From a virus: DNA of 26,980 nucleotides. The stretch lies in IMG/VR virus record IMGVR_UViG_3300032356_000010, positions 1 to 26,980 of that record; one strand, 5' to 3'. This document shows, one piece after another, positions 10,275 to 26,980 of this stretch. The first letter of the stretch is position 1; each line of letters starts with the position of its first letter. The notes under the pieces were generated by a model that worked only from the letters and a program-made list of their open reading frames with translations, did not search any database and had not been told where the DNA came from. The translations under genes were made by a program, and so were the position numbers.

Positions 10275-10606
10275 TGGACCCACTCCGCTTCCACAATCTC
10301 GGCCTTGCCATCGGCTGCGGTCACCGTCACTGCGGATCTGACGCAGCGAGCGCCTTTGCGGCTGCCAACCGCCTTCGGCTTCCGTCCCTTTGCCGTCTGC
10401 TGCATTCCCTTTGCCGTCTGCTGTTGTTGTCCCTCCGCCAGCGTCTGCACCGCGCGTCGCAGCCGGGGCGAGTCCAGCGGTTTCAGCATTTCACGCAGCT
10501 CCGGTTCGAACACCTGGTACACCGCTAGGCAGACAGGATCCCGGCTCGCGATCCGCTCGACGATGCCGAGCAGCAGCAGATCCAGGCGTCCTGTACGGTC
10601 AGCCAT
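10271..10606 (-). CDS. Small helical soluble protein with QQTAKG repeat
   Basis: 111 aa from ATG 10606, chosen because AGGTGA lies 5 bases upstream; a GTG at 10615 overlapping the previous stop is the alternative. It is one of only two genes without a membrane segment in the 9296-16074 stretch. The N-terminal half is helical (LDLLLLGIVERIAS, VYQVFEPELREML). The centre carries a duplicated QQTAKG (encoded by a direct DNA repeat at 10385-10402 and 10406-10423), then a basic stretch (KGRKPKAVGSRKGARC) and a C-terminal strand pair. The basic part could contact nucleic acid or lipid head groups. I do not recognise it. Confidence 0.55.
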   Translation of the reverse strand: MADRTGRLDLLLLGIVERIASRDPVCLAVYQVFEPELREMLKPLDSPRLRRAVQTLAEGQQQQTAKGMQQTAKGRKPKAVGSRKGARCVRSAVTVTAADGKAEIVEAEWVQ

Positions 10607-10611
10607 CGCGT

Positions 10612-10959
10612 TCACCTGTTGGCCAGAACCACTCCCAATACCGCTGCGCTGCCGATGACCACCCAGTTCGGCACGCCCTTGATGATGGTTTGCCCGGTCA
10701 GCGGGCTTTGCGGCGGGCTGGCCGTCCGCTTGATCCCGGCAGTCTCCAGCGGTTCAGGGCAATCCACCTCGAACAGCATGGTCGGATCGAGCATGCACAC
10801 ATTGAAACACTTGCCGTTCTCGGTGCTCTTCATGACCACCCACTGGGTGGCGTCCGTGCACGGACCGGTATAACGGTCAGTACCAGTGTCAGTAACAGTA
10901 GCAGTAGCAGTGTCAGTCAGGATCGCTCCCATGTCGCCAAGGCTAATCGGAATCATCAT
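10612..10959 (-). CDS. Tail-anchored small membrane protein with QSPLTGQ motif
   Basis: 115 aa; GGGAGGAAGCGAAG precedes the paired ATGATG. It opens MMIPISLGDMGAIL, then has a Thr-Asp-rich stretch (encoded by a 6-base-periodic repeat), a Cys-containing domain (TGPCTDATQWVVM, CFNVCM, FEVDCPEP), a linker with QSPLTGQ, and a C-terminal transmembrane helix (VPNWVVIGSAAVLGVVL) followed by only ANR. The QSPLTGQ block is identical in the 11127-11528 protein but encoded by different codons. Most of the protein is probably outside the cytoplasm or on the virion surface side, with the C-terminus buried. It overlaps the upstream gene by 17 bases. Confidence 0.62.
   Translation of the reverse strand: MMIPISLGDMGAILTDTATATVTDTGTDRYTGPCTDATQWVVMKSTENGKCFNVCMLDPTMLFEVDCPEPLETAGIKRTASPPQSPLTGQTIIKGVPNWVVIGSAAVLGVVLANR
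10876..10919. repeat. Short CAGT-type repeat inside a coding region
   Basis: Tandem, imperfect 6-base units (GTCAGT/AACAGT/AGCAGT). On the minus strand they encode the Thr-Asp/Ala-Thr run near the start of the 10612-10959 protein. In-frame unit, so copy-number change would alter only the length of the linker. Confidence 0.65.
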
Positions 10960-11113
10960 CTTCGCTTCCTCCCGAAAGCAGGATCAGCAGCAGCAACGCA
11001 GCGACCGCCAGCAGCAGCGGGTTGATCGAATCCTGCTGCTGCTGCTGCGGCTGGACATGCAGACTCCATCCCTCCGCTCCCGGCATGTTCGTCTGCGGCT
11101 GGCAAATCATCAT
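10943..11113 (-). CDS. 56-aa tail-anchored microprotein
   Basis: 56 aa: MMICQPQTNMPGAEG, a Gln run, then a long hydrophobic helix (INPLLLAVAALLLLILL) and a short, very acidic tail (GGSEDDDSD). The opening MMI matches three neighbours. TAGAGG from the upstream gene's stop lies about 10 bases before the start ATGATG. The small size and single helix recall the minor membrane proteins of membrane-containing phages and phage holins; the acidic rather than basic tail argues mildly against a classical holin. Its 3' end overlaps the next gene by 17 bases, implying coupled translation. Confidence 0.58.
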   Translation of the reverse strand: MMICQPQTNMPGAEGWSLHVQPQQQQQDSINPLLLAVAALLLLILLSGGSEDDDSD

Positions 11114-11126
11114 CGCGGCAAAACCT

Positions 11127-11528
11127 CTAGTCTGATGCGAGAAACAGACCCAATCCAATCGCGCCCGCGAGCAGCAGCATGCCGCCGGACGACGACGACT
11201 GCTGGCGCTGTGTGATGCTCGGCATATTCTGTCCGGTCAAAGGCGACTGCGCACCGGGTGTCCGCCACGCGCCGCCCGCCGCCTGCGCTCCGGTTTCCGG
11301 CAGCATGTAGCTCCACCAATCCGGCGGGTAGGCGTAGTCGATGTCCATATACGGCAAGCCGTAGCCCGATGTGTCTGAATACACATAATCCACTGGCTGC
11401 TGATGAAGCCTCCACCACTCGTAGCCGAAGTCGAAGTTCTCGTCGTAATCGGCGTCCTGAAGCGTGTAGCGGGACAGATCCGAGTAGACGTATTCGACTT
11501 GGCCCAGCGAGCCGGTGCGGATCATCAT
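11127..11528 (-). CDS. Tyr/Asp/Trp-rich tail-anchored protein with QSPLTGQ motif
   Basis: 133 aa; the ATG overlaps the upstream TGA (ATGA). After MMIRTGSLGQVEYV comes a region of about 60 residues dominated by Tyr, Asp and Trp (YVYSDLSRYTL, DENFDFGYEWW, YVYSDTSGYGLPY, DIDYAYPPDWWSYM), with an internal duplication of YVYSD-[LT]-S-[RG]-Y. A linker with QSPLTGQ and a Ser run leads to a C-terminal transmembrane helix (GGMLLLAGAIGLGLFL) and a three-residue tail ASD. The Tyr/Asp-rich part has little hydrophobic core, so it may be an extended adhesive or carbohydrate-binding arm. Composition differs sharply from the neighbours. Confidence 0.6.
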   Translation of the reverse strand: MMIRTGSLGQVEYVYSDLSRYTLQDADYDENFDFGYEWWRLHQQPVDYVYSDTSGYGLPYMDIDYAYPPDWWSYMLPETGAQAAGGAWRTPGAQSPLTGQNMPSITQRQQSSSSGGMLLLAGAIGLGLFLASD

Positions 11529-12019
11529 TGCCACGGCCTCCGGTACGCCTTGACGTAGCGCCACGTCATCCCGCTCATCCCGAGTTGGGACAGGTAGCCG
11601 TGGTACTCGCTCGCCGTCAGGCCCTGGTTGTCGGTCAGCCCGAAGCGCTCGCCGAGCACCGGCGCGTACTCCGCGCACGGAGGCGAGCACAAACCCGCTT
11701 CGATGGCCGCCTGCGCCCGGTAGTAGTTCCACGCGTGCCATCTGTAGCGCCACTCCCCGGTCAGCGACGCCTTCGACGGATCCAGCGCCGCCTGCTTGAG
11801 CACGTCATCCGGCGGCGGCGTGCCGACGCTTTCCGGCATCACGCCAGCAGCGTCGGCTGCAGGATTGCCGGTAGACGGAGCGCTGCTCCCGGTCGCCGGA
11901 GTCCCGCCGCCAGCCGCCGGTGTCCGCTGCTGGATCGCCAGCGTCGAGTTCGGCGTTCGCCGGTTGAGCAAGAGCAGCAGCACCGCCCCGCCGATCAGGA
12001 TCCAGCCCGCGTTGTTCAT
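11525..12019 (-). CDS. N-terminally anchored membrane protein with exposed C-terminal domain
   Basis: 164 aa with the opposite arrangement from its neighbours: MNNAGWILIGGAVLLLLL is an N-terminal signal-anchor followed by RR. A Pro/Ala/Thr/Ser linker (containing TPATGSS and APSTGNP) then leads to a C-terminal domain of about 90 residues (EWRYRWHAWNYYRAQAAIEA, CSPPCAEYAPVLGERFG, ASEYHGYLSQLGMSGMTW). The RR after the helix marks a cytoplasmic or interior side by the positive-inside rule, which would place the C-terminal domain inside; the short N-terminus makes this uncertain. Start overlaps the stop of the previous gene (ATGA). Confidence 0.6.
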   Translation of the reverse strand: MNNAGWILIGGAVLLLLLNRRTPNSTLAIQQRTPAAGGGTPATGSSAPSTGNPAADAAGVMPESVGTPPPDDVLKQAALDPSKASLTGEWRYRWHAWNYYRAQAAIEAGLCSPPCAEYAPVLGERFGLTDNQGLTASEYHGYLSQLGMSGMTWRYVKAYRRPWQ

Positions 12020-12468
12020 CGGTACAGCCTCCTCAACGGCTCAAAGTCATCCTTCCTGTTGTCATCCCGCAGCAGGAAGAACCAGACGGCGAGCGCGGCC
12101 AGAGCGAGCAGCAGCAGCTTGTTCCAGTCGGATGATGCAGCTGTCTGCACCGTCTGCGCAGTCCGGACTAGGACGCCGACGTCCTCGTGTCGGTAGACGT
12201 CCTCGGCAAGCACGTTTCCGCCGTAGAGCGCCTGCACCCGCACCTCATCTCCGGTCGCCAGCTGCTGCGGGAACGGCAGCCGCAAGCAGGTGGGCGTCGC
12301 CGGGCTGCCCGGACCCTCGTAAACCGCGCTGCCGCGAACGAACACCCGGAAGGTCACCTGCGACGGCTGAACGCCGGCAGTCGGCATGTAGCACGTCGAC
12401 AGGTAGCGCTCGGCTGTCGGCACGGTGGACAGCACGTTATGAGCCGAGACGATGCTTCCGGGTGCCAT
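12016..12468 (-). CDS. Tail-anchored beta-rich membrane protein
   Basis: 150 aa; GGAGG lies ahead of the ATG within the last codons of the upstream gene. Residues 1 to about 100 are beta-rich and include two cysteines (STCYMPTAG, TPTCLRLPF), SQVTFRVFVRGSAVY and GDEVRVQALYGGNVL, suggesting a small Ig-like domain exposed outside the cytoplasm. A C-terminal helix (NKLLLLALAALAVWFFLL) follows, then a 20-residue charged tail (RDDNRKDDFEPLRRLYR), the longest tail in the set. I infer a membrane-tethered spike or vertex-type subunit, or a component of an envelope-spanning complex. Confidence 0.6.
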   Translation of the reverse strand: MAPGSIVSAHNVLSTVPTAERYLSTCYMPTAGVQPSQVTFRVFVRGSAVYEGPGSPATPTCLRLPFPQQLATGDEVRVQALYGGNVLAEDVYRHEDVGVLVRTAQTVQTAASSDWNKLLLLALAALAVWFFLLRDDNRKDDFEPLRRLYR

Positions 12469-12471
12469 AAC

Positions 12472-13662
12472 CTACTTCCTCCCCCCGCCCGACATCGCAA
12501 ACAGCAGCGCCGCTGCGCCGCCGATCAGCAGCAGCATCGGGAGGCCGGTGCCGGCTGACTGGACGATGACTCCCGGCGTCTGGCCGCCGGTATCCGGAGT
12601 CCGGCTGCCGGGCTGAGGCGGCTGGTTCGCGGCGGGCAGCTCCGGCGTCTGCACACTGGCTCCAGGAATCTGTGTGCTGCTGCCAGGTGTCACGGTCACG
12701 TTGCCCGGCGGCTGCGACGGGTTCGCCAGCTCGAAGTCCAGCCTGCCGACAATCTCGCCGCCGACGTAGACGTTCTCCTGCCAGCGCCCGGCGTGCTCCG
12801 GCTGCCACGATCCGGAGATCTCGTAGTAGCCCTGAGCGTTGGTCGCGCCGTAGGCGGTCCTGCCATGGCTCTGGCCGTTCTGCCACGCCTCGATCTCCAC
12901 GGTTTGGTTCGGCAGGCCCCAGATCTTCAGCGTGAACCTGCCGCCAGTCTTGTAGCCGTCCGGCGCGAGCAACTGCACGTTGCGGCGGTAGGCGGTCGTG
13001 GTAGCGGCGGTGTTGGATGCCTGTGTCTGTGTCTGTGTCTGCGTCGCCGGTGCTGTCGCGTAGGCAAACTCCTGGGGCAACTGAACCTGAGCCGATGTGC
13101 CGGACGGCTGCACGAGCACGGACGTGTTGATCCCGGTGGAGTAGCCCTGCATCGGGGCGGCGTAGATGCCGAAAAGGTACGCGATATCGGATGCCTCTTC
13201 CTGCGGCGAGTTGTGGCGCACCGGGTTTCCGATGCTGGCATCCATGCTCTTGCCGTCCCTGGACAGCACAGCCTGGTACTGGAACAGACCGACGCAGCCC
13301 GCGCCGGGATCGCAGGACGAGCCGAGGATGTTGACCGAGAACCCGGCGCTCTGGAGCGCGGCCACCACGGCATCGGCATATTGCCTCGACTGCGCGAAGT
13401 AGATGTTGACCCACTGGGTCTTGGCCGCGAGATCCTGCACCGGATCGCCGAAGACGGATGGCGCGGGCGGAATCATCCCGCCCAGCCCGAGCAGGTAGCC
13501 GCGCACCTCGGGCATCCGCTGGCGGCCCCACTGCGGACTGCGGTTCTGCCTCGACCACTGGCTGCCGGGACGGAGCGCAGCCGCAGTCTGGCTTGGGCCA
13601 TATGCCGGACGCAGCGCCCAGCCCGGGTCTTCATCGAACTTTCCTTGCACGGGCAGCTGCAT
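12472..13662 (-). CDS. Large tail-anchored surface protein with Ig-like domain and PDTG motif
   Basis: 396 aa; AAAGGAGGAC within the upstream gene's end serves the ATG, which overlaps the upstream TGA. Residues about 75-205 form one domain (TQWVNIYFAQSRQYADAVV, FSVNILGSSCDPGAGCVG, DIAYLFGIYAAPMQGYST). A TQTQTQTQ run at about 207-214 leads to an Ig-like domain at 229-313 (FTLKIWGLPNQTVEIEAW, ATNAQGYYEISGSW, GRWQENVYVGGEIVG). A Pro/Thr/Gln-rich stalk containing TPDTGGQ at 355-361 is followed by a transmembrane helix at 374-390 and the tail SGGGRK. The Ig-like domain plus stalk plus C-terminal anchor is the layout of a membrane-tethered surface protein. No enzyme motif seen. Confidence 0.65.
   Translation of the reverse strand: MQLPVQGKFDEDPGWALRPAYGPSQTAAALRPGSQWSRQNRSPQWGRQRMPEVRGYLLGLGGMIPPAPSVFGDPVQDLAAKTQWVNIYFAQSRQYADAVVAALQSAGFSVNILGSSCDPGAGCVGLFQYQAVLSRDGKSMDASIGNPVRHNSPQEEASDIAYLFGIYAAPMQGYSTGINTSVLVQPSGTSAQVQLPQEFAYATAPATQTQTQTQASNTAATTTAYRRNVQLLAPDGYKTGGRFTLKIWGLPNQTVEIEAWQNGQSHGRTAYGATNAQGYYEISGSWQPEHAGRWQENVYVGGEIVGRLDFELANPSQPPGNVTVTPGSSTQIPGASVQTPELPAANQPPQPGSRTPDTGGQTPGVIVQSAGTGLPMLLLIGGAAALLFAMSGGGRK
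13021..13045. repeat. TGTGTC tandem repeat inside a coding region
   Basis: About four copies of a 6-base unit that, on the minus strand, encode alternating Thr-Gln in the linker between the two domains of the 12472-13662 protein. Confidence 0.7.
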
Positions 13663-13946
13663 CAGTCCTCCTTTCCGCCACTGAACAACCATAGCGCAGC
13701 CAGCGCCAGGCCGCCGATGAGAAGCCATCTCGGCGTGACGCCGAACCTCGCCAGCGCGGGCGATTCCGGAATGCATCGGTATCGGACCACCGTAATGGAT
13801 GTCGTGCCTGGCGCAGATCCCGGGTCGTAGATCTCCGCTTTCGTCCCCAGCGGGCATTCGCCGGGATCGGAGACGAGCTTCATGTCGCACGGGCAGGGCG
13901 GCGCGATGCATTGGCAATCCGCAGCGCCCAGTCGCACTATGGGCAT
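13662..13946 (-). CDS. Small Cys-rich tail-anchored protein
   Basis: 94 aa; two bases separate its ATG from the upstream stop. It opens MPIVRLGAADCQCIAPPCPC, continues with MKLVSDPGECPLGT and VRYRCIPESPALARFG, and ends with a transmembrane helix (PRWLLIGGLALAALWLF) and tail SGGKED. The six cysteines in the first ~58 residues suggest disulfides or metal binding on an exposed face. The DPGECPLGT-to-VRYRC segment resembles DPSKCPTGT-to-LYEC in the 9831-10274 protein, so the two are probably diverged relatives. The last codons (AAG GAG GAC) form the ribosome binding site of the following gene. Confidence 0.62.
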   Translation of the reverse strand: MPIVRLGAADCQCIAPPCPCDMKLVSDPGECPLGTKAEIYDPGSAPGTTSITVVRYRCIPESPALARFGVTPRWLLIGGLALAALWLFSGGKED

Positions 13947-13948
13947 GG

Positions 13949-14686
13949 CTAACCGTCCTCCTTCTTCATAAGCAGAAAGATCCCTGCGCCGGCCAGCAGC
14001 AGCGGCAGCAGCAGGCCGCTGCCGGACAACGGAACCAGAGCGCCGGTGACCGGATCGATGGTCGCATTCACAGGATCCGGGCGCGGCGCGTCCCTGGCGA
14101 TGGGGTCGCGGTACAGAGTGAAGTAGTCGCAACCGGTTCCCGTGGGGCACCACGGGGCGCTGCCGCCTCGCTGGCGCTCCTCGATGCACCGGCGGCCCGG
14201 GTCGCCGCCCACCGCCGCGCATCCCCGGATGATGTAATCCCACAGCGCGTCGAAGTTGGCCAGCGCCTGCCGCTGGCTGGAGACCGTGCGCGGCCCGTTC
14301 ATGTAGGCCTCCAGGTTCTCCTTCATCTTCGCCTCGGCCTCGTCTACCACTTTCGTCGCCTGCTCCTTGCGGATGTTGCTGATCCGGTTCCGCATGAGCC
14401 AGAAAGTGACCCCGGCCACCGCCGCCCCGATGACCGGGATTGCAATTGCTGCAGCGCTGCCGAACATGGCCGGTGCAGCCGCCGTCGCCGCAGCGCCCGC
14501 TGCGTTGACTGCGGTCACCGAGGGCGGAGCGCCGCTTGCCACGCCGGAGGCAAGGACGTTCGATGCGGCACCGGCGGCGCTCTGGTACGGGTTGTACCCG
14601 CCGGGGTAGCCGAGGATGACGACGTCGTCGACCGAGGGCGTGTAGCCGTCTCCGAGCGCCGCCAGTGCAGGATGGAGCATTGCCAT
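13949..14686 (-). CDS. Two-helix membrane protein with DPVTG motif
   Basis: 245 aa. Residues 1-75 are Ala/Gly/Ser-rich. A first hydrophobic helix at about 77-98 (AAIAIPVIGAAVAGVTFWLM) is followed by a basic-acidic helix (RNRISNIRKEQATKVVDEAE) and a conserved-looking central block (ANFDALWDYIIRGCAAVGG, DPGRRCIEERQRGG, CDYFTLYRDPI). A linker with DPVTGA at 211-216 precedes a second helix at 222-240 and the tail KKEDG. I have the impression of having seen the ANFDxxW / CIxxRQRGG / YRDPI pattern in environmental phages, where it is unassigned. Both ends probably lie on the same side or the first helix is amphipathic. A membrane-pore or penton-like role is conceivable but unproven. Confidence 0.62.
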   Translation of the reverse strand: MAMLHPALAALGDGYTPSVDDVVILGYPGGYNPYQSAAGAASNVLASGVASGAPPSVTAVNAAGAAATAAAPAMFGSAAAIAIPVIGAAVAGVTFWLMRNRISNIRKEQATKVVDEAEAKMKENLEAYMNGPRTVSSQRQALANFDALWDYIIRGCAAVGGDPGRRCIEERQRGGSAPWCPTGTGCDYFTLYRDPIARDAPRPDPVNATIDPVTGALVPLSGSGLLLPLLLAGAGIFLLMKKEDG

Positions 14687-14728
14687 GAGCCGCCTCAGAT
14701 CTCCAGTGCCATCGCCATTGCCGCCTGC

Positions 14729-15088
14729 TTACCGCAGCGGGAGAATCACCTTGAGATCCCCGCTCCTGGTGCGCTTGATCTTGGCCGTGACGTAGCGGTT
14801 GGTCGGAATCGGGTTCTTCTTCCGCTTGGTCGCTTCCTTCAGCGCCGATTCCGCCCGCTTCCTCGCGCCGGACGCGGTCTTCAGGGTCGTCCGGGCCTTG
14901 CGGCTGGCCTTGGCGATCTGCGCCGCCCGCTTGGCCTTCGACTTCGCGCCACGGCTGCCAGCCTTGGTTTTGTACTGGGCCGATTCGCCGACCCGGTCCG
15001 GGTCGTAGTCTCCGGAGGCGCGGATCGGATGGAAGACTCCGTTGCCGTCGTAGTAACCGGCGGCGATATTCTTCACTCGCAGTGGCAT
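14729..15088 (-). CDS. Small basic soluble protein with RKKNP linker
   Basis: 119 aa; GAAGGAGACTGACCC precedes the ATG. An N-terminal beta segment (MPLRVKNIAAGYYDGNGVFH, PIRASGDYDPDRVGE) leads to a Lys/Arg/Ala-rich helix (SKAKRAAQIAKASRKARTTL and on to ALKEATK). RKKNP then introduces a C-terminal strand pair (NRYVTAKIKRTRSGDLKVIL). I believe I have seen the 'AAGYYD-G-FHPIRAS-DYDP' opening in other uncultured-virus proteins. It has no membrane segment. The basic helix is likely to bind DNA, RNA or acidic lipid. Only 42 bases separate it from the next gene. Confidence 0.6.
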   Translation of the reverse strand: MPLRVKNIAAGYYDGNGVFHPIRASGDYDPDRVGESAQYKTKAGSRGAKSKAKRAAQIAKASRKARTTLKTASGARKRAESALKEATKRKKNPIPTNRYVTAKIKRTRSGDLKVILPLR

Positions 15089-15091
15089 GGG

Positions 15092-15400
15092 TCAGTCTCC
15101 TTCTCCTCGAAGCAAAAGAAACAGCGCGACGCCGCCCAGCAGCAGAAGCGATAATCCGGAGAAGCTGCTCCCGATGACGCGCTCCGGAGTAGATGGCTGA
15201 GATGGCAGCACCGCGCCCGGCGTGCCGGGTCCGGTCTGGTAAATCCGCGTTCCGCCAGCGCCTGTCTCCATGACCAGCGGCTGGTTCTGGTTCAGCAGGA
15301 TCTGCTGGCCGGTCTTGCTCCAGCCCTGGGTGATGGACTGGAACCAGTCGGTCCAGCTGCCCGACAGTCCGTTGCAGCATGGCTTGGCGGAGTACATCAT
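15092..15400 (-). CDS. Tail-anchored small membrane protein
   Basis: 102 aa; the ribosome binding site GGAGATAG is formed by the last codons of the transglutaminase-like gene, 9 bases ahead of the ATG. It opens MMYSAKPCCNG, has an aromatic helix (WTDWFQSITQGWSK), a Pro/Thr/Gly/Gln stalk (LVMETGAGGTRIYQTGPGT) and a C-terminal transmembrane helix (FSGLSLLLLGGVALFLLL) with tail RGEGD. The last codons contain GGAGAAGGAGAC, which acts as the ribosome binding site of the next gene. A membrane-anchored virion or envelope component by context. Confidence 0.6.
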   Translation of the reverse strand: MMYSAKPCCNGLSGSWTDWFQSITQGWSKTGQQILLNQNQPLVMETGAGGTRIYQTGPGTPGAVLPSQPSTPERVIGSSFSGLSLLLLGGVALFLLLRGEGD

Positions 15401-15405
15401 GGCGG

Positions 15406-16074
15406 CTATCTCCTCGACATCAGGACGGCGGCTCCGATCACGCCCAGCGCGATCAGGCCCGGTCGGATCTTGTCAATATCCAGGTTGAGGACCACGGGCT
15501 TGCGGATCGGCCACTCCGTCCTGCGGTAGACGCCTTGCACCTCCCACCCGGCGTAGGGTCCGTGGCTGGCGTCGATGGGAAACCTCTTTCCGTCGCGGTA
15601 GCTGGCGACGTAAACATGGCTGAACTGGGCCGGGTCGCGCTCGTCGGCGGCCACGGTGACATAGCTTGCCTGGATTCCCTGGGCGAGCAGCATGGACGCG
15701 GCGAGCATGGAGTAGTCGTCGCAGTCGCCCTGCGCCACCGGCACCGGCAGCGCGAGCAGGTCGCGGGGCCGGATCAGGGTTTCGACGATGTAGTCCTTGT
15801 ACCAGCGTTGGAACGGCTGGCTGAGGGCCTCATCATTGACGAACCGGATCCTGGCCCGGATGAAGCGGTAGATCTGTTCCTCGGGAGTCAGCCCAGGATA
15901 CATCCGCTGCGCCGCGGCGACGGCTTGCCGGACTTCCGGCGACTCGCTGTCCTCGGCGGCGTACTTCGACATCAAGCCGATGACGGCAGACGTCTGGCTG
16001 TCGCCGTACTCGGGGACCGGCGACAAGTCGTACCTCACCTTGCCGAAGCCGGGCAAGAAGGCGGTGCCGGGCAT
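15406..16074 (-). CDS. Membrane-anchored transglutaminase-fold cysteine enzyme
   Basis: 222 aa, first gene of the long minus-strand unit. A complete papain/transglutaminase-like triad is visible: C118 in VAQGDCDDYSML, H153 in QFSHVYVASY, D168 in RFPIDASHGPY. The helix carrying the cysteine and the spacing to His and Asp match the transglutaminase-like core. An N-terminal helical region (EVRQAVAAAQRMYPGLTPEE, YRFIRARIRF) precedes it and a single C-terminal helix (PGLIALGVIGAAVLM) ends in SRR. Family members are mostly proteases or amidases; true Gln-Lys cross-linkers exist. Cleavage or cross-linking of the neighbouring anchored proteins is an attractive inference. The start has no clear Shine-Dalgarno sequence; TTAAAAT lies just upstream, so the message could be nearly leaderless. 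Longer in-frame starts run back through the control region and are unlikely. Confidence 0.75.
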   Translation of the reverse strand: MPGTAFLPGFGKVRYDLSPVPEYGDSQTSAVIGLMSKYAAEDSESPEVRQAVAAAQRMYPGLTPEEQIYRFIRARIRFVNDEALSQPFQRWYKDYIVETLIRPRDLLALPVPVAQGDCDDYSMLAASMLLAQGIQASYVTVAADERDPAQFSHVYVASYRDGKRFPIDASHGPYAGWEVQGVYRRTEWPIRKPVVLNLDIDKIRPGLIALGVIGAAVLMSRR

Positions 16075-19447: not shown

Positions 19448-21612
19448 ATGCCGCGCGACATCACCAGTTCATCCAGCTCATCCTCGCCGGTCTCCGGGTT
19501 GCGCTTCCGCGCGGCTGGCTGCGCTGAAGCCGATCCGGGACCGTACAGCTCTTCGTAGACCGCCGGCCCCAGGTGCTCCACGATCTGGCGGCGATACTTG
19601 CGGCAGATGGTTTTGGCCAGAGCCGCCATGCCGGGCGTCCACAGTTCGTCCGGCGTGTTGGCCAGCCGGTGGCCGATGGCCGCGTCCAGCTTGTTGAATC
19701 CGGCGTCGTCCAGCGTCCGGGCCTTGTCGCACAGCGCGGCGATGAACCGGATGATGCTGCGGGCCGCACGCTGCTGCGGCTCCGACATCGACTCGCCTTC
19801 CTGCTGCAGGCGCTGGCGCGGCGTGAGCACTGCGGCTGCTGCGGACGGCGCGGCATCGGTCCTGGCCAGCGCGGCGGGCACAATCGGCTCGTCGAGGAAC
19901 TCGGGCTTCTCCTCGGTGCCAGCGCCCTTGTTGTCGAGCGCCTTGCGGTTGGTCTCCTGCTTCTCCACGATGGCCTGGGCGATGCGTGCGGTGAGCGATC
20001 CTTCGAGCACCAGGTGCTGCACCAGCACCGGATCGCTCTGCCCGATGCGGTGGCAGCGGTCCTCGCCCTGCTCGATGTTGGCCGGAACCCAGTCCAGCTC
20101 GATGAAGATGACATGGGACGCAGCGGTCAGCGTGATGCCCACGCCCGCTGCAGTGATGGAACCGATGAAGACGTCCGCGCCGCCTTCCGTCTGCTGGAAG
20201 CTGTCGACGGCGGCCTGCTTGTCCGCCGCGCTCATGCCGCCGACGAGCTTGGCCACCTTGTAGCCCTTCTCGGACAGATGGTTTTCGATCAGCTCGATGA
20301 CGTCTCGGTGGTGGGCGAAGACGACCAGTTTGCGGGAGTTCTCCACGGCATCCTCGAGATAGCCCAGCGCAGCCTTGGCCGTCGCCAGGCCAACCTCGTG
20401 CCGGATCCGCGCCATCTCCTCGAAGGCGACCGAATGCGCCTGCCTGAGCTTTTTGACCGCCGCGCGGTAGGCCTCATCATCTCCGCTCGCCTTGGCGATC
20501 TCCATCTCGGCCTGCGCGGCCAGCAGCGAGTCCTGCTTCTTCCTGGCGTGCTCGTACTCGGCGCGGATCACCTCCGCCGCGCCGCTTGCGTCCAGTTCGA
20601 CAACCTGCCGGATCTTCGGAGGCAGCTCGGTGAGCACCTGCGACTTCAGCCGCCGGATCATCACATGCAGGCGCAACTGATGCTGCAGCTCGTCGAGGTT
20701 GTCCGGCCCCAGGAACTGCCAGCCGTAACGCGTCTGGGTGTAGCCTGCGTAGCGCATCCAGAACTTGCGCCGGGTCTGGAAGTGCTCGAAGCGGCTGAAG
20801 ATGGGCACGTTCAGCAGGCAGTAGTCAACTATGGTCCAGAGATCCTGCGGGCGGTTGTAGATGGGCGTGCCGGTCAGCATCAGCCGCCGCTTGGCCTGCA
20901 ACGGCGGAAGGTGGATGATCCACTGGCGACTGTCCGGATCCCACGTCTTGCTGCCGACGATCTGCACCGTGCGCTTGGCGTCCGGGTTCTTGATGTAATG
21001 CGCCTCGTCGATGATGGCGATGTCCCAGACGCGGCTGCGCAGCTCGCGGCTGAAGCGGACGAGCAGGTCGTAGTTGATGATGACGATGTCCGATTCCGGC
21101 CAGCCGGTTTTGCTGTCGACGATGCCGATGCTGCGGTCCCGGACGAGCCACTTCCTCAGTTCGCGCTGCCAGTTGATCTTGAGGCTCGCGGGGCAGACCA
21201 CTAGCACGTTGCGGCAATCCTGGCCCAAGTAGTTGATCAGGCCGATGGCCTGGATGGTTTTGCCCAGGCCCATCTCGTCCGCGATCAGCGTTCCCTCGCG
21301 CTCCAGCGCGTAGGCGACCCCCGCCTTCTGGTAGCCCAGGTAGCTGAGGTTCGGCGGAGCGGGGATGTCGATGTCGGCCTTGACGGCATGGCTCGCCTCG
21401 AGCTGCCTCTGCTGCTTGCGCCGCCAGTTGTTGATCTCGTCCGCCGCCGCCGCGTCGAAGTACTGCTGCAACTTTAGCGCCTTCTTGTAGTCGGCGGTCT
21501 GCCACTCCTTGGCATCGCGGTTCCACCACCAGCCCGCCTCGTTCGGGATCAGGCGCTTGTCGTAGGGTCCGCGCCAGCGGAACAGACCGCCGTAAAAAGT
21601 GACGTATCTCAT
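19444..21612 (-). CDS. SNF2-family DEAD/DEAH helicase-like ATPase
   Basis: 722 aa. A short N-terminal domain (GGLFRWRGPYDKRLIPNEAG, WWWNRDAKEW) precedes the SNF2 core: QxxGVAYALEREGTLIADEM, Walker A GLGKT at 115-119, Walker B DEAH at 202-205 (IIDEAHYIKNP), motif III LMLTGTPIYNR, and in the second RecA lobe GSITAAGVGITLTAASH and the arginine-finger region EDRCHRIGQ. This resembles the SMARCAL1-like helicases common in phages, which translocate on or anneal DNA using ATP. A C-terminal extension of about 160 residues contains SIIRFIAALCDKA and RKRNPETGEDELDELV. That RKRNP matches the linker motif of the left-hand structural proteins. The start overlaps the ParB-like stop (ATGA). Confidence 0.9.
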   Translation of the reverse strand: MRYVTFYGGLFRWRGPYDKRLIPNEAGWWWNRDAKEWQTADYKKALKLQQYFDAAAADEINNWRRKQQRQLEASHAVKADIDIPAPPNLSYLGYQKAGVAYALEREGTLIADEMGLGKTIQAIGLINYLGQDCRNVLVVCPASLKINWQRELRKWLVRDRSIGIVDSKTGWPESDIVIINYDLLVRFSRELRSRVWDIAIIDEAHYIKNPDAKRTVQIVGSKTWDPDSRQWIIHLPPLQAKRRLMLTGTPIYNRPQDLWTIVDYCLLNVPIFSRFEHFQTRRKFWMRYAGYTQTRYGWQFLGPDNLDELQHQLRLHVMIRRLKSQVLTELPPKIRQVVELDASGAAEVIRAEYEHARKKQDSLLAAQAEMEIAKASGDDEAYRAAVKKLRQAHSVAFEEMARIRHEVGLATAKAALGYLEDAVENSRKLVVFAHHRDVIELIENHLSEKGYKVAKLVGGMSAADKQAAVDSFQQTEGGADVFIGSITAAGVGITLTAASHVIFIELDWVPANIEQGEDRCHRIGQSDPVLVQHLVLEGSLTARIAQAIVEKQETNRKALDNKGAGTEEKPEFLDEPIVPAALARTDAAPSAAAAVLTPRQRLQQEGESMSEPQQRAARSIIRFIAALCDKARTLDDAGFNKLDAAIGHRLANTPDELWTPGMAALAKTICRKYRRQIVEHLGPAVYEELYGPGSASAQPAARKRNPETGEDELDELVMSRGI

Positions 21613-22373
21613 CTTTTCTTCAACGCCTCCGCGATTCTCTTTTCGGTTTCGTCTCCGTTTTTCTGCCCTTCGAGGTAGAGTATCAGGTTGTCTAATAGTT
21701 CACGCGCCTCGGGACACGCCTTCCTGAGCCGGGCGAGCATGCGGCTGACATCCCGACTGGTGGGCCGTTTCCTACGGACGGAACGGTTGGCGGATTCCGG
21801 CTTTCCGCCGAGCAGCCCCCTGACCCTTGCATCCCGCTCCCTGGAAGGCATCCTGGCCAGCAGGTAGCCGTCGTACGGACTGATGCGACTGCCCACGGCC
21901 TGCAGGATATCCGGCGGCAGGGATAGCAACGTCCGGCGCTGCGTCACCCAGCCCGGGCTGCGCCCGAAGATCCGGGCGACCTCCTCCACCGTCCGCCCTT
22001 CGTCCATCAGACTGCGGATCAGCTCTGCCTCCTCGACCGGCTTCAGGTTGCGTCGGGCGCTGTTTTCCCGGATCTGGACGACCAGCTCTTCCTCCGTGCT
22101 GGGCACCTCTATGGCCGATACCTGGTTGAGTGGGCTGCCTTCCGGCAGATCGCCGTTGCGCTTCAGCCAGAGCAGGCCTGCCACGCGCCGATGGCCGTAA
22201 ACCAGCCGCCAGCCGCCCCGGATCCGCCGCACGCCGACCGGCTGCAGCTGGCAGCCCGCTTCGAGCAGGTCCTGCGCCATCCTCCGGGCATCGTCTTCCG
22301 GGATCTCGCCCCGGATGTTGTCGCTCAGCTCGATCTCGGACGGATCGAGCAGCAGCAGCCTCGGTTTGGCCAT
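21609..22373 (-). CDS. ParB/Spo0J-like protein
   Basis: 254 aa. The N-terminal ParB-type domain has the CTPase-style motif GHRR (in LVYGHRRVAGLL) and ENSARRNLKPVEEAELI. The helix-turn-helix follows (TVEEVARIFGRSPGWVTQRR). The C-terminus is a charged helical tail. ParB proteins bind CTP, load on specific DNA sites and spread; in phages they serve partition, transcription control or packaging-related roles. No ParA is in the window, so a stand-alone regulator is plausible. The palindromes at 16122-16198 are candidate targets (inference). GGGAGGGGTG precedes the ATG. It overlaps the SNF2 start by four bases, implying coupled expression of two DNA-handling proteins. Confidence 0.85.
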   Translation of the reverse strand: MAKPRLLLLDPSEIELSDNIRGEIPEDDARRMAQDLLEAGCQLQPVGVRRIRGGWRLVYGHRRVAGLLWLKRNGDLPEGSPLNQVSAIEVPSTEEELVVQIRENSARRNLKPVEEAELIRSLMDEGRTVEEVARIFGRSPGWVTQRRTLLSLPPDILQAVGSRISPYDGYLLARMPSRERDARVRGLLGGKPESANRSVRRKRPTSRDVSRMLARLRKACPEARELLDNLILYLEGQKNGDETEKRIAEALKKR

Positions 22374-22549
22374 CACCCCTCCCTGACGGTCAGCAACTCG
22401 ACGATCTCCCGGATCCGGGCCTCGATGCGCTCGCGGTCGCGGGTCGACAGCACCTCGGCCAGCGGCCGGGTCTGCCATAGCGCCATTTCGATCTCGCATG
22501 CCAGCCGCTCCGGGCTGCACTTCAGCTTGTACTCCGGCTTCGTTTGCAT
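22373..22549 (-). CDS. 58-aa helical protein upstream of ParB-like gene
   Basis: 58 aa, starting MQTKPEYKLKCSPERLACEI and ending ELLTVREG. The ATG is preceded by AGAGGAGAACCGAC and the TGA overlaps the ParB-like ATG by one base. Two helices are likely (RLACEIEMALWQ; RERIEARIREIVELL). The position and coupling suggest an accessory to the ParB-like protein or a short regulator, but I recognise no family. The only intergenic room between this gene and the next is 15 bases. Confidence 0.6.
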   Translation of the reverse strand: MQTKPEYKLKCSPERLACEIEMALWQTRPLAEVLSTRDRERIEARIREIVELLTVREG

Positions 22550-22564: not shown

Positions 22565-23203
22565 CTAAACGGCAAGTTCGGCCAACGCCACTTCGTTAGG
22601 AAACTTGTGCTTCAACGTACGCCAGACCGTTTCGACCATGACTGCTTCGGCACTCCTGGACAGCGGCGGCTTGTCGAATACGAAAACCGGCGTCTCCAGC
22701 AGATGCCGGAAATGCCAGCGTGCGTGGAGGTTGTCCTTGATGTGCTCGCGCAGCCGCCGGAGCGTCTCATCCACCGCATGCGCACGGCGGGATTGCACCG
22801 CCTCCGGGAAAACGTCCCCTTGCCCGCCCAGCGCCCCGATGCTCCAGTTGAACCCCCCTCCGTAGCTGGCCACATAGATTCGGTAGATCGGCACGTAAAA
22901 CCTGTCCGAGGACTTGACCAAGCGATCCGGCGTCTCGCGCCGGATGACATCCAGCACCTCGGTGTAGAGCATATGGTTGCTGTTTCCCAGCGTGGACAAT
23001 GCCATCTGCTCCACGCGTATGCTGTGGGCGTAGATGTACTCGATCCCGTGCGCCTGGTGCATGATGCCCAGCACGGATCCCATGAGATCGATGCCCGGCG
23101 ACAGCATCCGTATTGCCGGGAAGGAGTAAGGGTGCCGCGACGGCCTGCACCTCGAAAGATCCAGCAGAGGAGAGACAATATCAGCTAGCGGACGAGCTTT
23201 CAT
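22565..23203 (-). CDS. Paralogous protein B of a tandem pair, unknown
   Basis: 212 aa; GGAG in the upstream gene's last codons serves the ATG, which overlaps its TGA. It aligns along most of its length with the next upstream gene: SPGIDLMGSVLGIMHQAHGI versus SPDVDMLPATLDIIMQASGI; VPIYRIYVASYGGG versus VPIYCAYQAEFLGR; KPPLSRSAEAVMVETVWRTL versus RPPLSIDPAAVAAEAMWRTI; and an identical PNEVALAELA near the end. No membrane segments, cysteine clusters or nuclease motifs are seen. Mixed alpha/beta content. It sits between the VWA/metallopeptidase gene and the ParB-like gene, so a role in a protein complex with those products is possible. Confidence 0.6.
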   Translation of the reverse strand: MKARPLADIVSPLLDLSRCRPSRHPYSFPAIRMLSPGIDLMGSVLGIMHQAHGIEYIYAHSIRVEQMALSTLGNSNHMLYTEVLDVIRRETPDRLVKSSDRFYVPIYRIYVASYGGGFNWSIGALGGQGDVFPEAVQSRRAHAVDETLRRLREHIKDNLHARWHFRHLLETPVFVFDKPPLSRSAEAVMVETVWRTLKHKFPNEVALAELAV

Positions 23204-23862
23204 ATGGCCAGCTCCGCAAGGGCAACCTCGTTGGGGTATGCCTGTTTGATCGTGCGCCACATCGCCTCTGCGGCGACGGCTGCCGGGTCGATCGACAGCG
23301 GGGGCCGATGGAACCAGTGCACCTCGGGCGCGTCCGGATGCGCCAGCAACGCGCCTTCGCGGGGGGCGCTCCCGGCATTGCGCCGGTACTGCTCGATAAA
23401 GCGGGCCGCCTCCGCCACAGCTTCCTGCCGCTTCGCCCGGGCTGCGTTGCCGATGATGAACGGACCGGCCTTCAACCTCGACAAAGCCCAGCGCATGAGT
23501 CCTCTGCCCAGAAACTCCGCTTGGTAGGCGCAGTAGATCGGAACCCACACCATCTGTCTGCCGGTGAAGGACGGGGTCGACAGTCGCATGGCATCCCGGA
23601 ATTCCAGATAGGCCGGGTAGGACAGTCTGGCCAGCGACTCCACAGACATCTTGGGGAACCGGACCGCATGCGCCAGCATCCGCTTTATGCCGGACGCCTG
23701 CATAATGATGTCCAGCGTGGCCGGAAGCATGTCGACATCTGGCGACATCGCCGGAGCAGCCAGGCGGGATACCATCGTTGTGGGTTTGTACAGGGCGTCG
23801 GACAGGAACATCGGATCCCCGCGCTCCATGAAGTGGTCGCTTACAAATGGCCAGAATCCCAT
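23200..23862 (-). CDS. Paralogous protein A of a tandem pair, unknown
   Basis: 220 aa; GGAGG lies 7 bases before the ATG, which overlaps the upstream TAA. It starts MGFWPFVSDHFMERGDPMF and shares most of its length with the 22565-23203 product, including the C-terminal block WRTIKQAYPNEVALAELAI. It differs in having a helical insertion (AARAKRQEAVAEAARFIEQY). The two have diverged well below easy DNA-level similarity, so the duplication is old. The retained VPIY strand, PPLS and C-terminal block are the likely functional core. No known motif identified. Confidence 0.6.
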   Translation of the reverse strand: MGFWPFVSDHFMERGDPMFLSDALYKPTTMVSRLAAPAMSPDVDMLPATLDIIMQASGIKRMLAHAVRFPKMSVESLARLSYPAYLEFRDAMRLSTPSFTGRQMVWVPIYCAYQAEFLGRGLMRWALSRLKAGPFIIGNAARAKRQEAVAEAARFIEQYRRNAGSAPREGALLAHPDAPEVHWFHRPPLSIDPAAVAAEAMWRTIKQAYPNEVALAELAI

Positions 23863-24290
23863 TACGCAGCCTCCAGCTCGGCCAGCGTCAGCGCCGCTTG
23901 GCCGTCGAAACCCGGCTGCCGCTCCGGCCACTGCGACCAGTAGCAGATCAGCTCGGCGCAGATATCCGGCACGGACAGCGTGTTGCTGCCCAGGATCGCG
24001 TAATCCGGCGCGTACTCATCGATGACGCGCCGCATCTCGTCCATCAGTACTGCTTCCGCGTCCTCCGGCGAGTCGGGAAGGACGCTGTAAGCCGCCGGGC
24101 AGTAGTAACCCAGGTCGGTCAGATCGTAGATGTCGCAAGCGATGGCCGAATGGTTGCAAGCGCGGCAGACCGCAGCCACGCGGATGCTGGGGGGCACGCC
24201 CAGCGCGGCGGATCGGTGCAGGATGTAGTTGTGCACGATCCGTTCATGCTGATACATGCCCTGGATTCCAGACGCCGAGAAAATCCTCAT
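23862..24290 (-). CDS. Small protein with Cys/Asp-rich centre and ALxLAEL-type tail
   Basis: 142 aa; the ATG overlaps the upstream TGA. It opens MRIFSASGIQGMYQHERIVH, has a central segment with VAAVCRACNHSAIACDIYDL and GYYCPAAYSVLPDSP, then an acidic helix (DAEAVLMDEMRRVIDEYAPD) and ends QPGFDGQAALTLAELEAA. The three cysteines and the histidine in VCRACNHSAIAC could bind a metal. The start is poorly served by a Shine-Dalgarno sequence, so translation is probably coupled to the VWA gene. The C-terminal tail resembles those of the two paralogues downstream and of two proteins upstream. Confidence 0.6.
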   Translation of the reverse strand: MRIFSASGIQGMYQHERIVHNYILHRSAALGVPPSIRVAAVCRACNHSAIACDIYDLTDLGYYCPAAYSVLPDSPEDAEAVLMDEMRRVIDEYAPDYAILGSNTLSVPDICAELICYWSQWPERQPGFDGQAALTLAELEAA

Positions 24291-25774
24291 TGCTCGACCA
24301 CCACTTTCTTGGCCCAACTGGGCACCTGGACGTCCCCGGCCACGAGGCCGACGACGACCGGCACCGGAGGCGGGTTGTCCGGCCACGGCGTGTAGCCGTC
24401 GGTCAGCACGACGATCAACTCGGGCCGAGGCTTCAGTTTCAGCGCGGCGTCGATGCCGACACGCATGTCGGTTCCGCCGCCGCCGGTCAGCTCGATCCTG
24501 CGCAGCGTGCTGACCTTGCGCGTACGGTGCGCCTTGGCGTCCACGTCGATCAGCGTGATCTCCCTGACTCCGATGGAGCGCAGGATGCCCTGCACCTCGC
24601 TGACCGCAGCCGCCAGTTCCTTGTCGCCCATCGAGCCGCTGGTGTCCAGCACCACGGCGATGTTGGGATCCGGAGTGACCATGCCAGGCTGGATGATGCC
24701 CCGCGCGGCGGCGCGGTGGCTGATGCGCCGCAGCGAGTAGTCAGAACTGCCGTAGCGGGCGGCGGCGGCGCGGCGGATGTGTGCGGCAAGCAGTTTCCGC
24801 CAGTCGGTTTTCGAGGGCTGGACGAACTGGTCGGCCCAGCGCTTCAAGCTCGCCGGGACGCTGCCCCGCTCCCGCGCGTGCCGCTGGATCTCCTTTGCAA
24901 CCTCCGACATGATGACCTCGGCCTCGATCTGGCCGACGCCATCGACGCCGGACTCCGCCGGGCTGGGCAGCTCCCACTCCCGGCGAGGACCGCCTGCGCA
25001 GGATCCGCAGTTGCCTGCACCCGGCGCGGGGCTGCCGCCGCCTTGGGGCTGGCCGCCGGGGTCGGACGTCTGACTGCCGGAGCCTGACTGCTGCTTGCCG
25101 GATCCGGATTGCTGGCTGCCGGATCCGGATTGCTGGCTGCCGGAGCCGGACTTCTGCTTGCCGGAGCCGGAACCCTGCCCCTGCTTGCCGGAGCCTGATT
25201 GCTGCTTGCCGGCACCGGATCCCTGACCCTGTCCCTGCTTGCCCTGCGCTTGCCCTTGGCCTTGGCTTTGCTTGCCTTGCCCTTGGCCCTGCTGCTGCTG
25301 CTGCCCTTGGCCCTGCTGCTGTTGCTGCTGCTGCTGGAGCGCGTCCCAGTACTCCTCCGGCGTGCGCTTCGGCGGCAGGTTGAACTGCTCCGGCATCAGC
25401 ACCCAGTCCGGCAGCCGGACGCCCTCGGTATCCCAGCGCTCCTCGCGGATCTCGCTGTTGATGCTCAGGTCCGTGCAGATGTTGGCCAGCTGCGGGCTTT
25501 GCTCCGACATCCACGCCAGTCGGGTGGCGTGCTGGCGCAGGATGTGATGCACCTCGTGGTAAATGGCGATGATGGCTTCCTTGGGCGTCATCCGGGACTG
25601 GATGTCCGGGTCGTAGTAAAACCTCCACCAGCGGTCGACCGCAAGCGTACCGAGGCCCGGCGCGGGCACCGGCACCATGCGGAAGATGATGTGGGCCAGA
25701 TACGGGCGCTCCTTGAGCAGCCGCAATCGGGCGTACTGCAGGATCTCAGGCATTTGTTCCGGGTTCGTCTTCAT
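24287..25774 (-). CDS. VWA domain protein with N-terminal metallopeptidase-like domain (DUF2201 type)
   Basis: 495 aa; ACGGAGGGACTGCCG precedes the ATG. The N-terminal domain has HEVHHILRQH at residues 73-82 (HExxHxxxxH zinc site) and DLSINSEI at 102-109. Residues about 147-260 are a low-complexity Gln-Gly/Ser-Gly-Lys linker ending in CGSCAGG. The C-terminal VWA domain has an intact metal-ion-dependent adhesion site: D377-T-S379-G-S381, T435 in GGGGTDM, and D459 in VVLTDG. The layout matches DUF2201-type proteins, which often pair with MoxR-like AAA ATPases as remodelling modules; no such ATPase is in the window. It is unknown whether the domain is an active peptidase. Predicted soluble. Confidence 0.85.
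   Translation of the reverse strand: MKTNPEQMPEILQYARLRLLKERPYLAHIIFRMVPVPAPGLGTLAVDRWWRFYYDPDIQSRMTPKEAIIAIYHEVHHILRQHATRLAWMSEQSPQLANICTDLSINSEIREERWDTEGVRLPDWVLMPEQFNLPPKRTPEEYWDALQQQQQQQQGQGQQQQQGQGQGKQSQGQGQAQGKQGQGQGSGAGKQQSGSGKQGQGSGSGKQKSGSGSQQSGSGSQQSGSGKQQSGSGSQTSDPGGQPQGGGSPAPGAGNCGSCAGGPRREWELPSPAESGVDGVGQIEAEVIMSEVAKEIQRHARERGSVPASLKRWADQFVQPSKTDWRKLLAAHIRRAAAARYGSSDYSLRRISHRAAARGIIQPGMVTPDPNIAVVLDTSGSMGDKELAAAVSEVQGILRSIGVREITLIDVDAKAHRTRKVSTLRRIELTGGGGTDMRVGIDAALKLKPRPELIVVLTDGYTPWPDNPPPVPVVVGLVAGDVQVPSWAKKVVVEQ
25060..25345. repeat. Low-complexity repeat encoding Q/G/S/K linker
   Basis: Degenerate tandem repeats, including near-identical units around 25098-25150, encode GSGSQQS/GSGKQQS-type heptads. 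A CTGCTG-rich run (25291-25337) encodes Gln runs. All lies inside the VWA gene and stays in frame. This is a coding repeat; it has no CRISPR-type spacers. Confidence 0.75.
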
Positions 25775-25862
25775 CGGCAGTCCCTCCGTGGCACGGGCAA
25801 TCACATTGGCAATCGGGCGCGGGGAACTCGTGGTCCCCCTGCTCACAGTATGTACAGATCAT
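25746..25862 (-). CDS. 38-aa Cys-rich microprotein (zinc-ribbon-like)
   Basis: 38 aa starting MICTYCEQGDHEFPAPDCQC. Six cysteines (C3, C6, C18, C20, C22, C24) and two histidines (H11, H25) in the first 25 residues suggest a small metal-binding fold. The tail is acidic. TTGGAGAAAACAT places a good Shine-Dalgarno sequence ahead of the ATG. The 3' end overlaps the VWA start by 29 bases, which itself has a ribosome binding site, so both are plausible. It may be an adaptor for the VWA protein or a translational coupler. Confidence 0.5.
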   Translation of the reverse strand: MICTYCEQGDHEFPAPDCQCDCPCHGGTADEDEPGTNA

Positions 25863-25881
25863 ATGTTTTCTCCAATAGGCG

Positions 25882-26661
25882 TCAAACCAACTCCGACAAC
25901 ACATCGTAGCCGGGCCACCGCGCAACGGCGGCGTCCAGCACATCGTTCCAGTCGATCACGGCTCCTGCCAGGGGCGAATACCAGGGTCGGGCGCGGCGGC
26001 AATGGACTACGAGGCCCCGGTACTCCCACAAGCGCGGCTCGTCGGTGTAGTAGGCCCTTACCGGCTCGAAGCTCCGGCTGATGCAGCCGATGAGGCGGCG
26101 CAGCTCGGTGTGCTGGTAGGAGAGCGCGCGCATGGGGTTCCCCGAATCGATCATCGGCAGATCGGTTATATACATCCAGTCGCGCAGGGTAGCCGATGGA
26201 TCGGGGTGGATGTACGGGATGTTTGCGGTCCACATGCGCCACAACCGCCTGCCGTCGCGGTTCCTGGCCTGCGGCCAAATCAGATTCACCGGGAAAGACA
26301 GGGTCCTTCCGCCGCCTGTCTCTGCGCAGACCAGCGACAGCAACCGTAGCAGCCGCTTCTGCGCGGACAGCATCTGATTCATGCCCGCGATGGAGATCGG
26401 CTGCGGGCCATGCCACCGCCAGCCGGTTTCGCCGAGCGGCAGGACGCGCACGGAGAACCCGCTGGCGCAGCGCCTGCTGTCCGGCAGGTAGGCCACCGCC
26501 TCGATCTTGCGGCCAGAGTCCAGCTCGGGCAGCTCCACCTCGACGAAGCGCGGATGCTGGTAGTAATCCATCTCAATGCCCCGGATCCTGACGCTTTGGG
26601 CGAGTTTCTTTTCTCCGACGCGCTCCAGAGCGGCGGCGACTTCCTCTGGGGTGAGTATCAT
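25882..26661 (-). CDS. 259-aa protein of unknown function
   Basis: CTGGAGGAATTGGT precedes the ATG, which overlaps the upstream TGA. It starts MILTPEEVAAALERVGEKKL, a helix, followed by a mixed alpha/beta body: FVEVELPELDSGRKIEAVAY, ISIAGMNQMLSAQKRLLRLL, RTLSFPVNLIWPQARNRDG, YITDLPMIDSGNPMRALSYQ and WEYRGLVVHCRRARPWYSPL. It ends ARWPGYDVLSELV. No membrane helix or nucleotide-binding loop is visible. It precedes the Cys-rich microprotein and VWA gene in the same unit, so a shared process is likely. I do not recognise a family. Confidence 0.58.
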   Translation of the reverse strand: MILTPEEVAAALERVGEKKLAQSVRIRGIEMDYYQHPRFVEVELPELDSGRKIEAVAYLPDSRRCASGFSVRVLPLGETGWRWHGPQPISIAGMNQMLSAQKRLLRLLSLVCAETGGGRTLSFPVNLIWPQARNRDGRRLWRMWTANIPYIHPDPSATLRDWMYITDLPMIDSGNPMRALSYQHTELRRLIGCISRSFEPVRAYYTDEPRLWEYRGLVVHCRRARPWYSPLAGAVIDWNDVLDAAVARWPGYDVLSELV

Positions 26662-26980
26662 ACCAATTCCTCCAGCGCCTCGAGCGCCCGCAGCCGGTCG
26701 GGCAGCCACGGGCAGCGCTCGCGGATGACGGCGTGCCGCGCCAGGTGGCGCAGCAGCTTGGGCAGCGGCAGATGCATTTCGCGGCCCCGGTCGTAGGGCC
26801 GCAGGCCCGGCGGATCCGACGCCTGCGACAGCGCCTCGGCAAGCTCGCGCCGATCGCGGTTGGGGAAACTGGGGATCGAGTTCTCCTGCAGCTTGCCGTT
26901 GATGAACGATATCGTCACCTGATCGCCGAAGTACAGCCGCTGCCCGGTGCGAAGGCGGATGGAGGTGATCACCGGCACTC
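26658..26980 (-). CDS. Small protein, possibly truncated at its N-terminus by the window edge
   Basis: At least 106 residues; two GTG codons near the edge (26978 and 26972) could be starts, or the reading frame may continue beyond the window. The visible opening PVITSIRLRTGQRLYFGDQV is strand-rich, then come FPNRDRRELAEALSQASD and a helical C-terminus (LLRHLARHAVIRER, then LPDRLRALEALEELV). The terminal ALEELV is encoded by codons that also form the ribosome binding site of the next gene. The unit clearly continues to the right. Function unknown. Confidence 0.5.
   Translation of the reverse strand, partial: VPVITSIRLRTGQRLYFGDQVTISFINGKLQENSIPSFPNRDRRELAEALSQASDPPGLRPYDRGREMHLPLPKLLRHLARHAVIRERCPWLPDRLRALEALEELV

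Follow-up and report, generated by a model that had tools for sequence, protein, structure and literature searches.

A conserved C-terminal tail on fast-diverging proteins encoded beside a viral MoxR/VWA-metallopeptidase pair

The window analyzed here, the whole 26,980-base stretch of the IMG/VR virus record IMGVR_UViG_3300032356_000010, to which no host genome is attached, encodes five neighboring proteins (A, B, C, E, and F) that end in a common short tail: an aliphatic residue, any residue, L-[A/S/E]-E-[L/I/M], then zero to three mostly small or hydrophobic residues and a free C terminus. This tail motif is real, conserved, and locally confined. Our leading, though tentative, explanation is that it acts as a C-terminal docking element that joins fast-diverging satellite proteins to a viral chaperone pair composed of a MoxR-like AAA+ protein and a VWA-metallopeptidase (DUF2201). 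A sequence-only reading of the window had picked out these five C termini, and all were re-read from the DNA on the minus strand; one of the five proteins, F, is incomplete, its N terminus being cut by the contig end.

22565..23203, minus strand: protein A, 212 amino acids; tail VALAELAV at 22568-22591; paralog of B
23200..23862, minus strand: protein B, 220 amino acids; tail VALAELAI at 23203-23226
23862..24290, minus strand: protein C, 142 amino acids; tail LTLAELEAA at 23865-23891
25882..26661, minus strand: protein E, 259 amino acids; C terminus RWPGYDVLSELV, tail at 25885-25905
26658..26980, minus strand: protein F, C-terminal 106 amino acids visible, N terminus past the contig end; tail ALEALEELV at 26661-26687

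The tail recurs in two further IMG/VR records. The only full relative found, G001 (IMGVR_UViG_3300043178_000159, 49,288 bases, with a near copy, L005/L027), carries a block in the order MoxR-like AAA+ gene (L003 4165-5256), three small predicted genes, F1, F2, E, a Cys-rich peptide, D, C, B, A, A3, A4, a 59-residue gene, a ParB-like gene, and an SNF2 helicase gene. Its tails read LEEIS, LEEIS, LAEMM, LAELEVA, LAELAI, LSELSA, LAELSV, and LAEML, and its three extra copies (A3, A4, and F2) are all tailed. The first residues of F visible in the window, VPVITS, align within the G001 ortholog, which as predicted is about 45 N-terminal residues longer, so that F has no true start inside the window. 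The second record, G002 (IMGVR_UViG_3300032356_000013, locus L017, 23,445 bases), contains the MoxR-like gene, whose product is 78% identical to that of G001, followed by the gene for a new 135-residue protein, X1, which ends in ITLEELEEL and whose body is unrelated to the other tailed proteins, and then by a truncated gene. Aligned to G001, G002 starts about 410 bases beyond the left end of the window, within the gene in which that end falls, and runs as far as the stretch separating the MoxR-like gene from F; it is thus probably the remainder of the window's own virus, the two together making up about 50 kb. Further tailed proteins, for which the sequence-only reading had suggested a search, are thus carried by the relatives, one of them with a new body, and gene content differs between the two viruses in A3, A4, F2, and X1. 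Searches of IMG/VR with E, B, the A/B alignment, D, C, the MoxR-like protein (alone and aligned), and the ParB-like protein returned no relatives other than G001, L005/L027, and G002; none of 43 pattern matches of the A/B alignment among GTDB contigs was confirmed, and tblastn of B and of E against 50,697 phage records gave no match. A single GTDB match of the D alignment covered only the low-complexity repeat region at residues 169-262 of D and was set aside.

Of the complete proteins predicted in the window, G001, and G002, 147 in all, 14 end in the strict tail pattern L[ASE]E[LIM].{0,3}$, and all of these lie within the segment from the MoxR-like to the ParB-like gene (14 of the 20 proteins counted there, or 14 of 21 if the tailless 59-residue G001 gene, one base past the bound, is included). 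Orthologs and paralogs inflate these counts, the number of independent tailed bodies being five (A/B, C, E, F, and X1). Because the strict pattern had been sharpened after G001 was seen, a score matrix was also trained on the five window tails only; it placed the nine tail proteins of G001 and G002 at ranks 1-5, 7, 8, 10, and 12 of 107, the remaining three of the top twelve being two unrelated proteins and a 151-residue protein of the tail block itself (LVLGDLT). The rank-9 score is reached by 110 of 23,753 random truncation points (0.46%), and by 54 of 2,131 when the end is aliphatic with a Glu. In the 23,744 residues of the window and G001, the four-residue core is found 16 times, and 13 of these occurrences fall in the tails. 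The 151-residue G001 protein (L003 6042-6497) has the C terminus RPELRAEAESALVLGDLT, with an Asp at the place of the motif Glu, and is possibly a divergent form of the tail.

Persistence of the tail among homologs, which the sequence-only reading had named as a check, was found in every ortholog despite strongly diverged bodies: identity between the window and G001 is 33% for E, 46% for F, 49% for C, 53% for A, and 69% for B, and the tail is kept in all; the D, ParB-like, SNF2, and MoxR-like proteins are 78-80% identical between relatives. In C, whose ortholog ends in LTLAELEVA, only two of the final 12 residues differ between the two viruses, and eight of the 10 identical ones have changed codons; the synonymous changes seen under the tails (GAG/GAA, CTG/TTG) show that the residues, and not only the DNA, have been kept. 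Within the A/B family (six proteins, five of which are 25-69% identical to the other, B), only 11 columns are invariant, and these include the Asn, the Leu, and the Glu of the tail. The bodies of F and of its second G001 copy, F2, align poorly, and CPWLP...LEE is common to both. The motif Glu is present in all 14 tails, in part by definition of the pattern, and is retained in every ortholog of the five window proteins. When the tail proteins were compared with the families of Pfam (window and G001), PHROGs (window), and NCBIfam and PADLOC (A, B, C, and E of the window, F1 of G001, and X1), no match came close to a curated cutoff, where there was one at all.

The tail genes lie between and around the two components of the candidate machine, and the remaining members of the block in the window are tailless:

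24287..25774, minus strand: protein D, VWA protein with an N-terminal metallopeptidase-like domain (DUF2201_N and DUF2201), ending in KKVVVEQ
25746..25862, minus strand: small Cys-rich peptide of 38 amino acids between E and D, with a counterpart in G001
22373..22549, minus strand: protein of 58 amino acids between A and the ParB-like gene
21609..22373, minus strand: ParB-like protein, bounding the tail block at the end farther from MoxR

Protein D matches DUF2201_N (E 1.9e-36) and DUF2201 (E 9.8e-22) in Pfam, as well as phrog_1314. It contains an HExxH sequence, HEVHH, at residues 73-77, also present in its ortholog, and a complete metal ion-dependent adhesion site (MIDAS) of the form DxSxS...T...D (D377, S379, S381, T435, and D459) that is invariant in both. 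The MoxR-like gene, recognized in G001 by matches to AAA_5 (E 7.8e-07) and phrog_1297, has midasin as the best solved relative of its product (E 9e-7). In each relative it lies upstream within the block, whereas the window, whose end falls inside F, does not include it. Genes for tail proteins separate it from D, unlike at the plasmid loci, where the two genes are adjacent. The sequence-only reading had suggested a docking tag for one partner, with the VWA protein as an example. The persistence of the tails, the complete MIDAS of D, and the upstream MoxR-like gene in both relatives lend weight to that idea and make D a credible docking partner as judged from its sequence; in profile comparison, the five tails did not emerge as a single homologous module. 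The Cys-rich peptide, MICTYCEQGDHEFPAPDCQCDCPCH..., is nearly identical in G001, where it likewise lies between E and the VWA gene. Matches of the SNF2 protein to PADLOC defense helicases reflect generic helicase similarity and were not used.

Docking is suggested because proteins with variable bodies and a constant end are encoded next to an AAA+/VWA pair. In such an arrangement, the variable body of each satellite would bind or constitute a client, and the constant tail would join it to the machine. The contact could be made in either of two ways: with the invariant Glu as the ligand that completes the Mg2+ site (MIDAS) in the VWA protein, or through binding of the hydrophobic C terminus to the AAA+ ring. 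Since the tail offers both a fixed Glu and a hydrophobic C terminus, we leave the contact surface between the two. We infer the binding of tail to machine, the surface bound, and the role of the bodies as adaptors or clients, and regard docking as plausible by analogy. A more specific version, in which at least five kinds of body are gained, lost, and duplicated while all being addressed to the machine by one LxE[LIM] tag with its Glu as the MIDAS ligand, appears unlikely. The literature surveyed assigns no substrate to the phage versions of MoxR-VWA machines. A portable C-terminal tag, if real, would name the partners at once and provide a short peptide for binding, and the tail block would be a place of adaptor exchange among viruses, possibly directed against host factors.

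Several observations weigh against docking to this machine. The tail is known from only two virus lineages. A set of 12 further MoxR/VWA loci from phages or plasmids, drawn from 101 phage and 71 plasmid records that match D, comprises 180 complete annotated proteins (those cut by the ends of a stretch being left out); none of these has the strict tail, and two have a loose form. This rules out the tail as a general feature of MoxR/VWA loci; with neighbors that lack it at all 12, it does not belong to such machines in general. None of the three small genes predicted close to the MoxR-like gene of G001 has the strict tail; one of them ends in LVLGDLT. Over their final 12 residues, A, E, and F are unexceptional in plain identity, with 98 of 200, 61 of 232, and 75 of 95 body windows, respectively, at least as identical, and only L, E, and the hydrophobic positions are fixed in these tails. 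Moreover, in 8 of the 14 tails (wB, wF, gB, gA, gA3, gF1, gF2, and X1, where w denotes the window and g denotes G001), the codon of the motif Glu lies inside a GGAG-like ribosome-binding site of the overlapping next gene. Finally, in the AlphaFold model of B, the tail amounts to the final helix, and L-x-E-L is an ordinary helix composition.

The main rival to docking is common descent of the C-terminal helix, whereby the tailed proteins would be remnants of one tandemly duplicated family, or would have a helix-kink-helix subdomain in common, with the tail as the last recognizable structural helix. A, B, and the two extra copies in G001 are clear paralogs. The A/B family and E also have in common a longer form, [FYW]P[NG]xxxL[AS]E[LM], at identical spacing, which occurs seven times in 30,856 residues, each time as the C terminus of an A/B- or E-family protein. 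It is to these families that the Pro and aromatic residue described before every tail in the sequence-only reading can be restricted; as a general feature they are weak, since 38 of 151 proteins (about one quarter) contain both within a comparable stretch. The best unguided hhalign alignment of A/B with E covers exactly the last 16 residues. The model of B has a helix at 193-208, a kink near the Pro, and a helix at 210-219, with a predicted local distance difference test (pLDDT) score of about 71-80 there and a mean of 67.3, and the model of E ends in a similar helix-kink-helix, at low confidence (mean pLDDT 56.8) and too poor for a fold search. In fold searches, the B model had no counterpart in PDB or BFVD at E <= 0.001, and its VIA-align Z scores did not exceed 3.4, which does not in itself make the fold new.

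Set against these points, the A/B-E alignment is not significant (E 0.24), and of the three hhalign E-values obtained (0.24, 0.13, and 0.48), only the first belongs to an alignment of tails, C and F aligning to A/B elsewhere. The four families compared (A/B, F, E, and C) show no significant mutual similarity, and tail hidden Markov models (HMMs) built from each recovered none of the other families at significance; we therefore do not claim the tails as one homologous module. C, F, and X1 have in common only the core motif, with different spacing before it, and the poorly aligning bodies of F and F2 favor an exchangeable end over common descent. On balance, we consider common descent somewhat less likely than docking, and the two may both hold.

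Structural co-assembly, in which the proteins would be subunits of one complex whose tails bind each other or a common scaffold other than MoxR/VWA, is consistent with the co-directional arrangement of the genes, often with four-base overlaps, and with the presence of tails on several different bodies. A scaffold candidate was, however, not found, and the differences in copy number and gene content between the two viruses would be unusual for a fixed complex; we regard this explanation as improbable. Less probable still is a degradation tag, the other role raised in the sequence-only reading, whereby hydrophobic C termini would be read as degrons by a host AAA+ protease to yield short-lived early proteins. 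The tails do end in small or hydrophobic residues, and such ends loosely resemble C-terminal degrons, but ssrA-like degrons are not known to have an invariant Glu at two to five residues from their end, and the tail is confined to one block.

The ribosome-binding sites under the eight tails listed above might suggest that the tail is a by-product of translational coupling, with overlapping GGAG sites forcing the Glu and chance supplying the rest. In the other six tails (wA, wC, wE, gC, gE, and gA4), which span three families, A with A4 of G001 and C and E in both viruses, the codon of the motif Glu lies outside such sites. The sequence-only reading had argued that ribosome-binding sites could not explain the tails of A and E, and this holds: the tail Glu of A is encoded by GAA, and the genes downstream of both A and E have their own sites past the stop codon. 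The tail of C escapes this account as well, the site there being the next Glu codon along, with the motif Glu encoded by GAG in the window and by GAA in the relative. Among 50 overlap-coupled genes in these viruses, 9 are tailed and none of the other 41 is (the gene call missed the B-to-A overlap). Because overlap-coupled genes elsewhere are tailless and the residues of C are retained across changed codons, we take the tail to be kept as protein; with wobble changes that preserve the amino acids, ribosome-binding site overlap cannot, as read from the DNA, be the whole cause of the tails, and the by-product explanation, largely refuted already, is the least likely of those considered.

Elsewhere in the window, three features on the minus strand may be recorded:

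5340-6083, minus strand: highly Arg-rich protein with repeated RRNP/RRRNP stretches, conserved in G001
9831-15400, minus strand: run of small proteins, several with an apparent single hydrophobic segment near the C terminus; possible virion membrane proteins
15406-16074, minus strand: transglutaminase-like protein (DUF553, Transglut_core) with a hydrophobic C-terminal segment

No report of a C-terminal motif at phage MoxR loci or on DUF2201 was found in the literature, of which the subscription part was thinly covered. Ternary conflict systems of the VMAP/MoxR-vWA type are described as having a third component beside MoxR and vWA (PMC7159879); no Pfam match to such a component (VMAP, iSTAND, FtsH, or beta-propeller) was seen in the tail proteins, where weak families could be missed. 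A close counterpart of the pair itself is found in jumbo phages, for which the accessible text of PMC7824862 only proposes a role in virion assembly. Agrobacterium phage Atu_ph07 (ASV44729.1/ASV44728.2; PMC7824862) likewise encodes a MoxR-like ATPase and a VWA protein with an N-terminal metallopeptidase, and D matches the region of the Atu_ph07 protein. At the Atu_ph07 locus (L011) and at 11 others, the neighbors are without the LxEL tail, whereas in the viruses of the window and G001 tail genes separate the MoxR and VWA genes. In Synechococcus phage MinM2 (L010 4513-5539), three tandem small genes directly before the VWA gene have similar C termini (about IRxAVFATLYAH) and may be an analogous case built on a different tail. 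The Acidianus two-tailed virus (ATV) also has a viral pair, p618 (MoxR) and p892 (VWA), and its MoxR protein is described as binding several further viral proteins (PMC4124505); it differs from D in that no peptidase domain is reported for the ATV pair in the accessible text of PMC7824862.

Other MoxR/VWA machines offer precedents for both of the contacts considered here. In CbbQO and in Rea1/midasin, an AAA+ ring carries a VWA domain that grips an acidic residue of its target through the MIDAS, which resembles the proposed docking of the tail: the VWA domain of CbbO depends on its own MIDAS and an acidic residue of rubisco (PMC4660213), and the Rea1-MIDAS is bound via a ligand Glu (PMC6624252). 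These two sources place the acidic residue within a folded domain of the target, whereas here it lies in a C-terminal tail that many proteins share. In NorQD, a hydrophobic C terminus docks on the MoxR ring, as could be the case for the tails; the C terminus of NorD holds the NorQ ring, and loss of its last two residues is described as abolishing co-purification (PMC13036017). The docking end in NorQD, according to the same account, is the C terminus of the VWA partner itself, whereas in the viruses described here the VWA protein D is tailless and it is the satellites that carry the tail.

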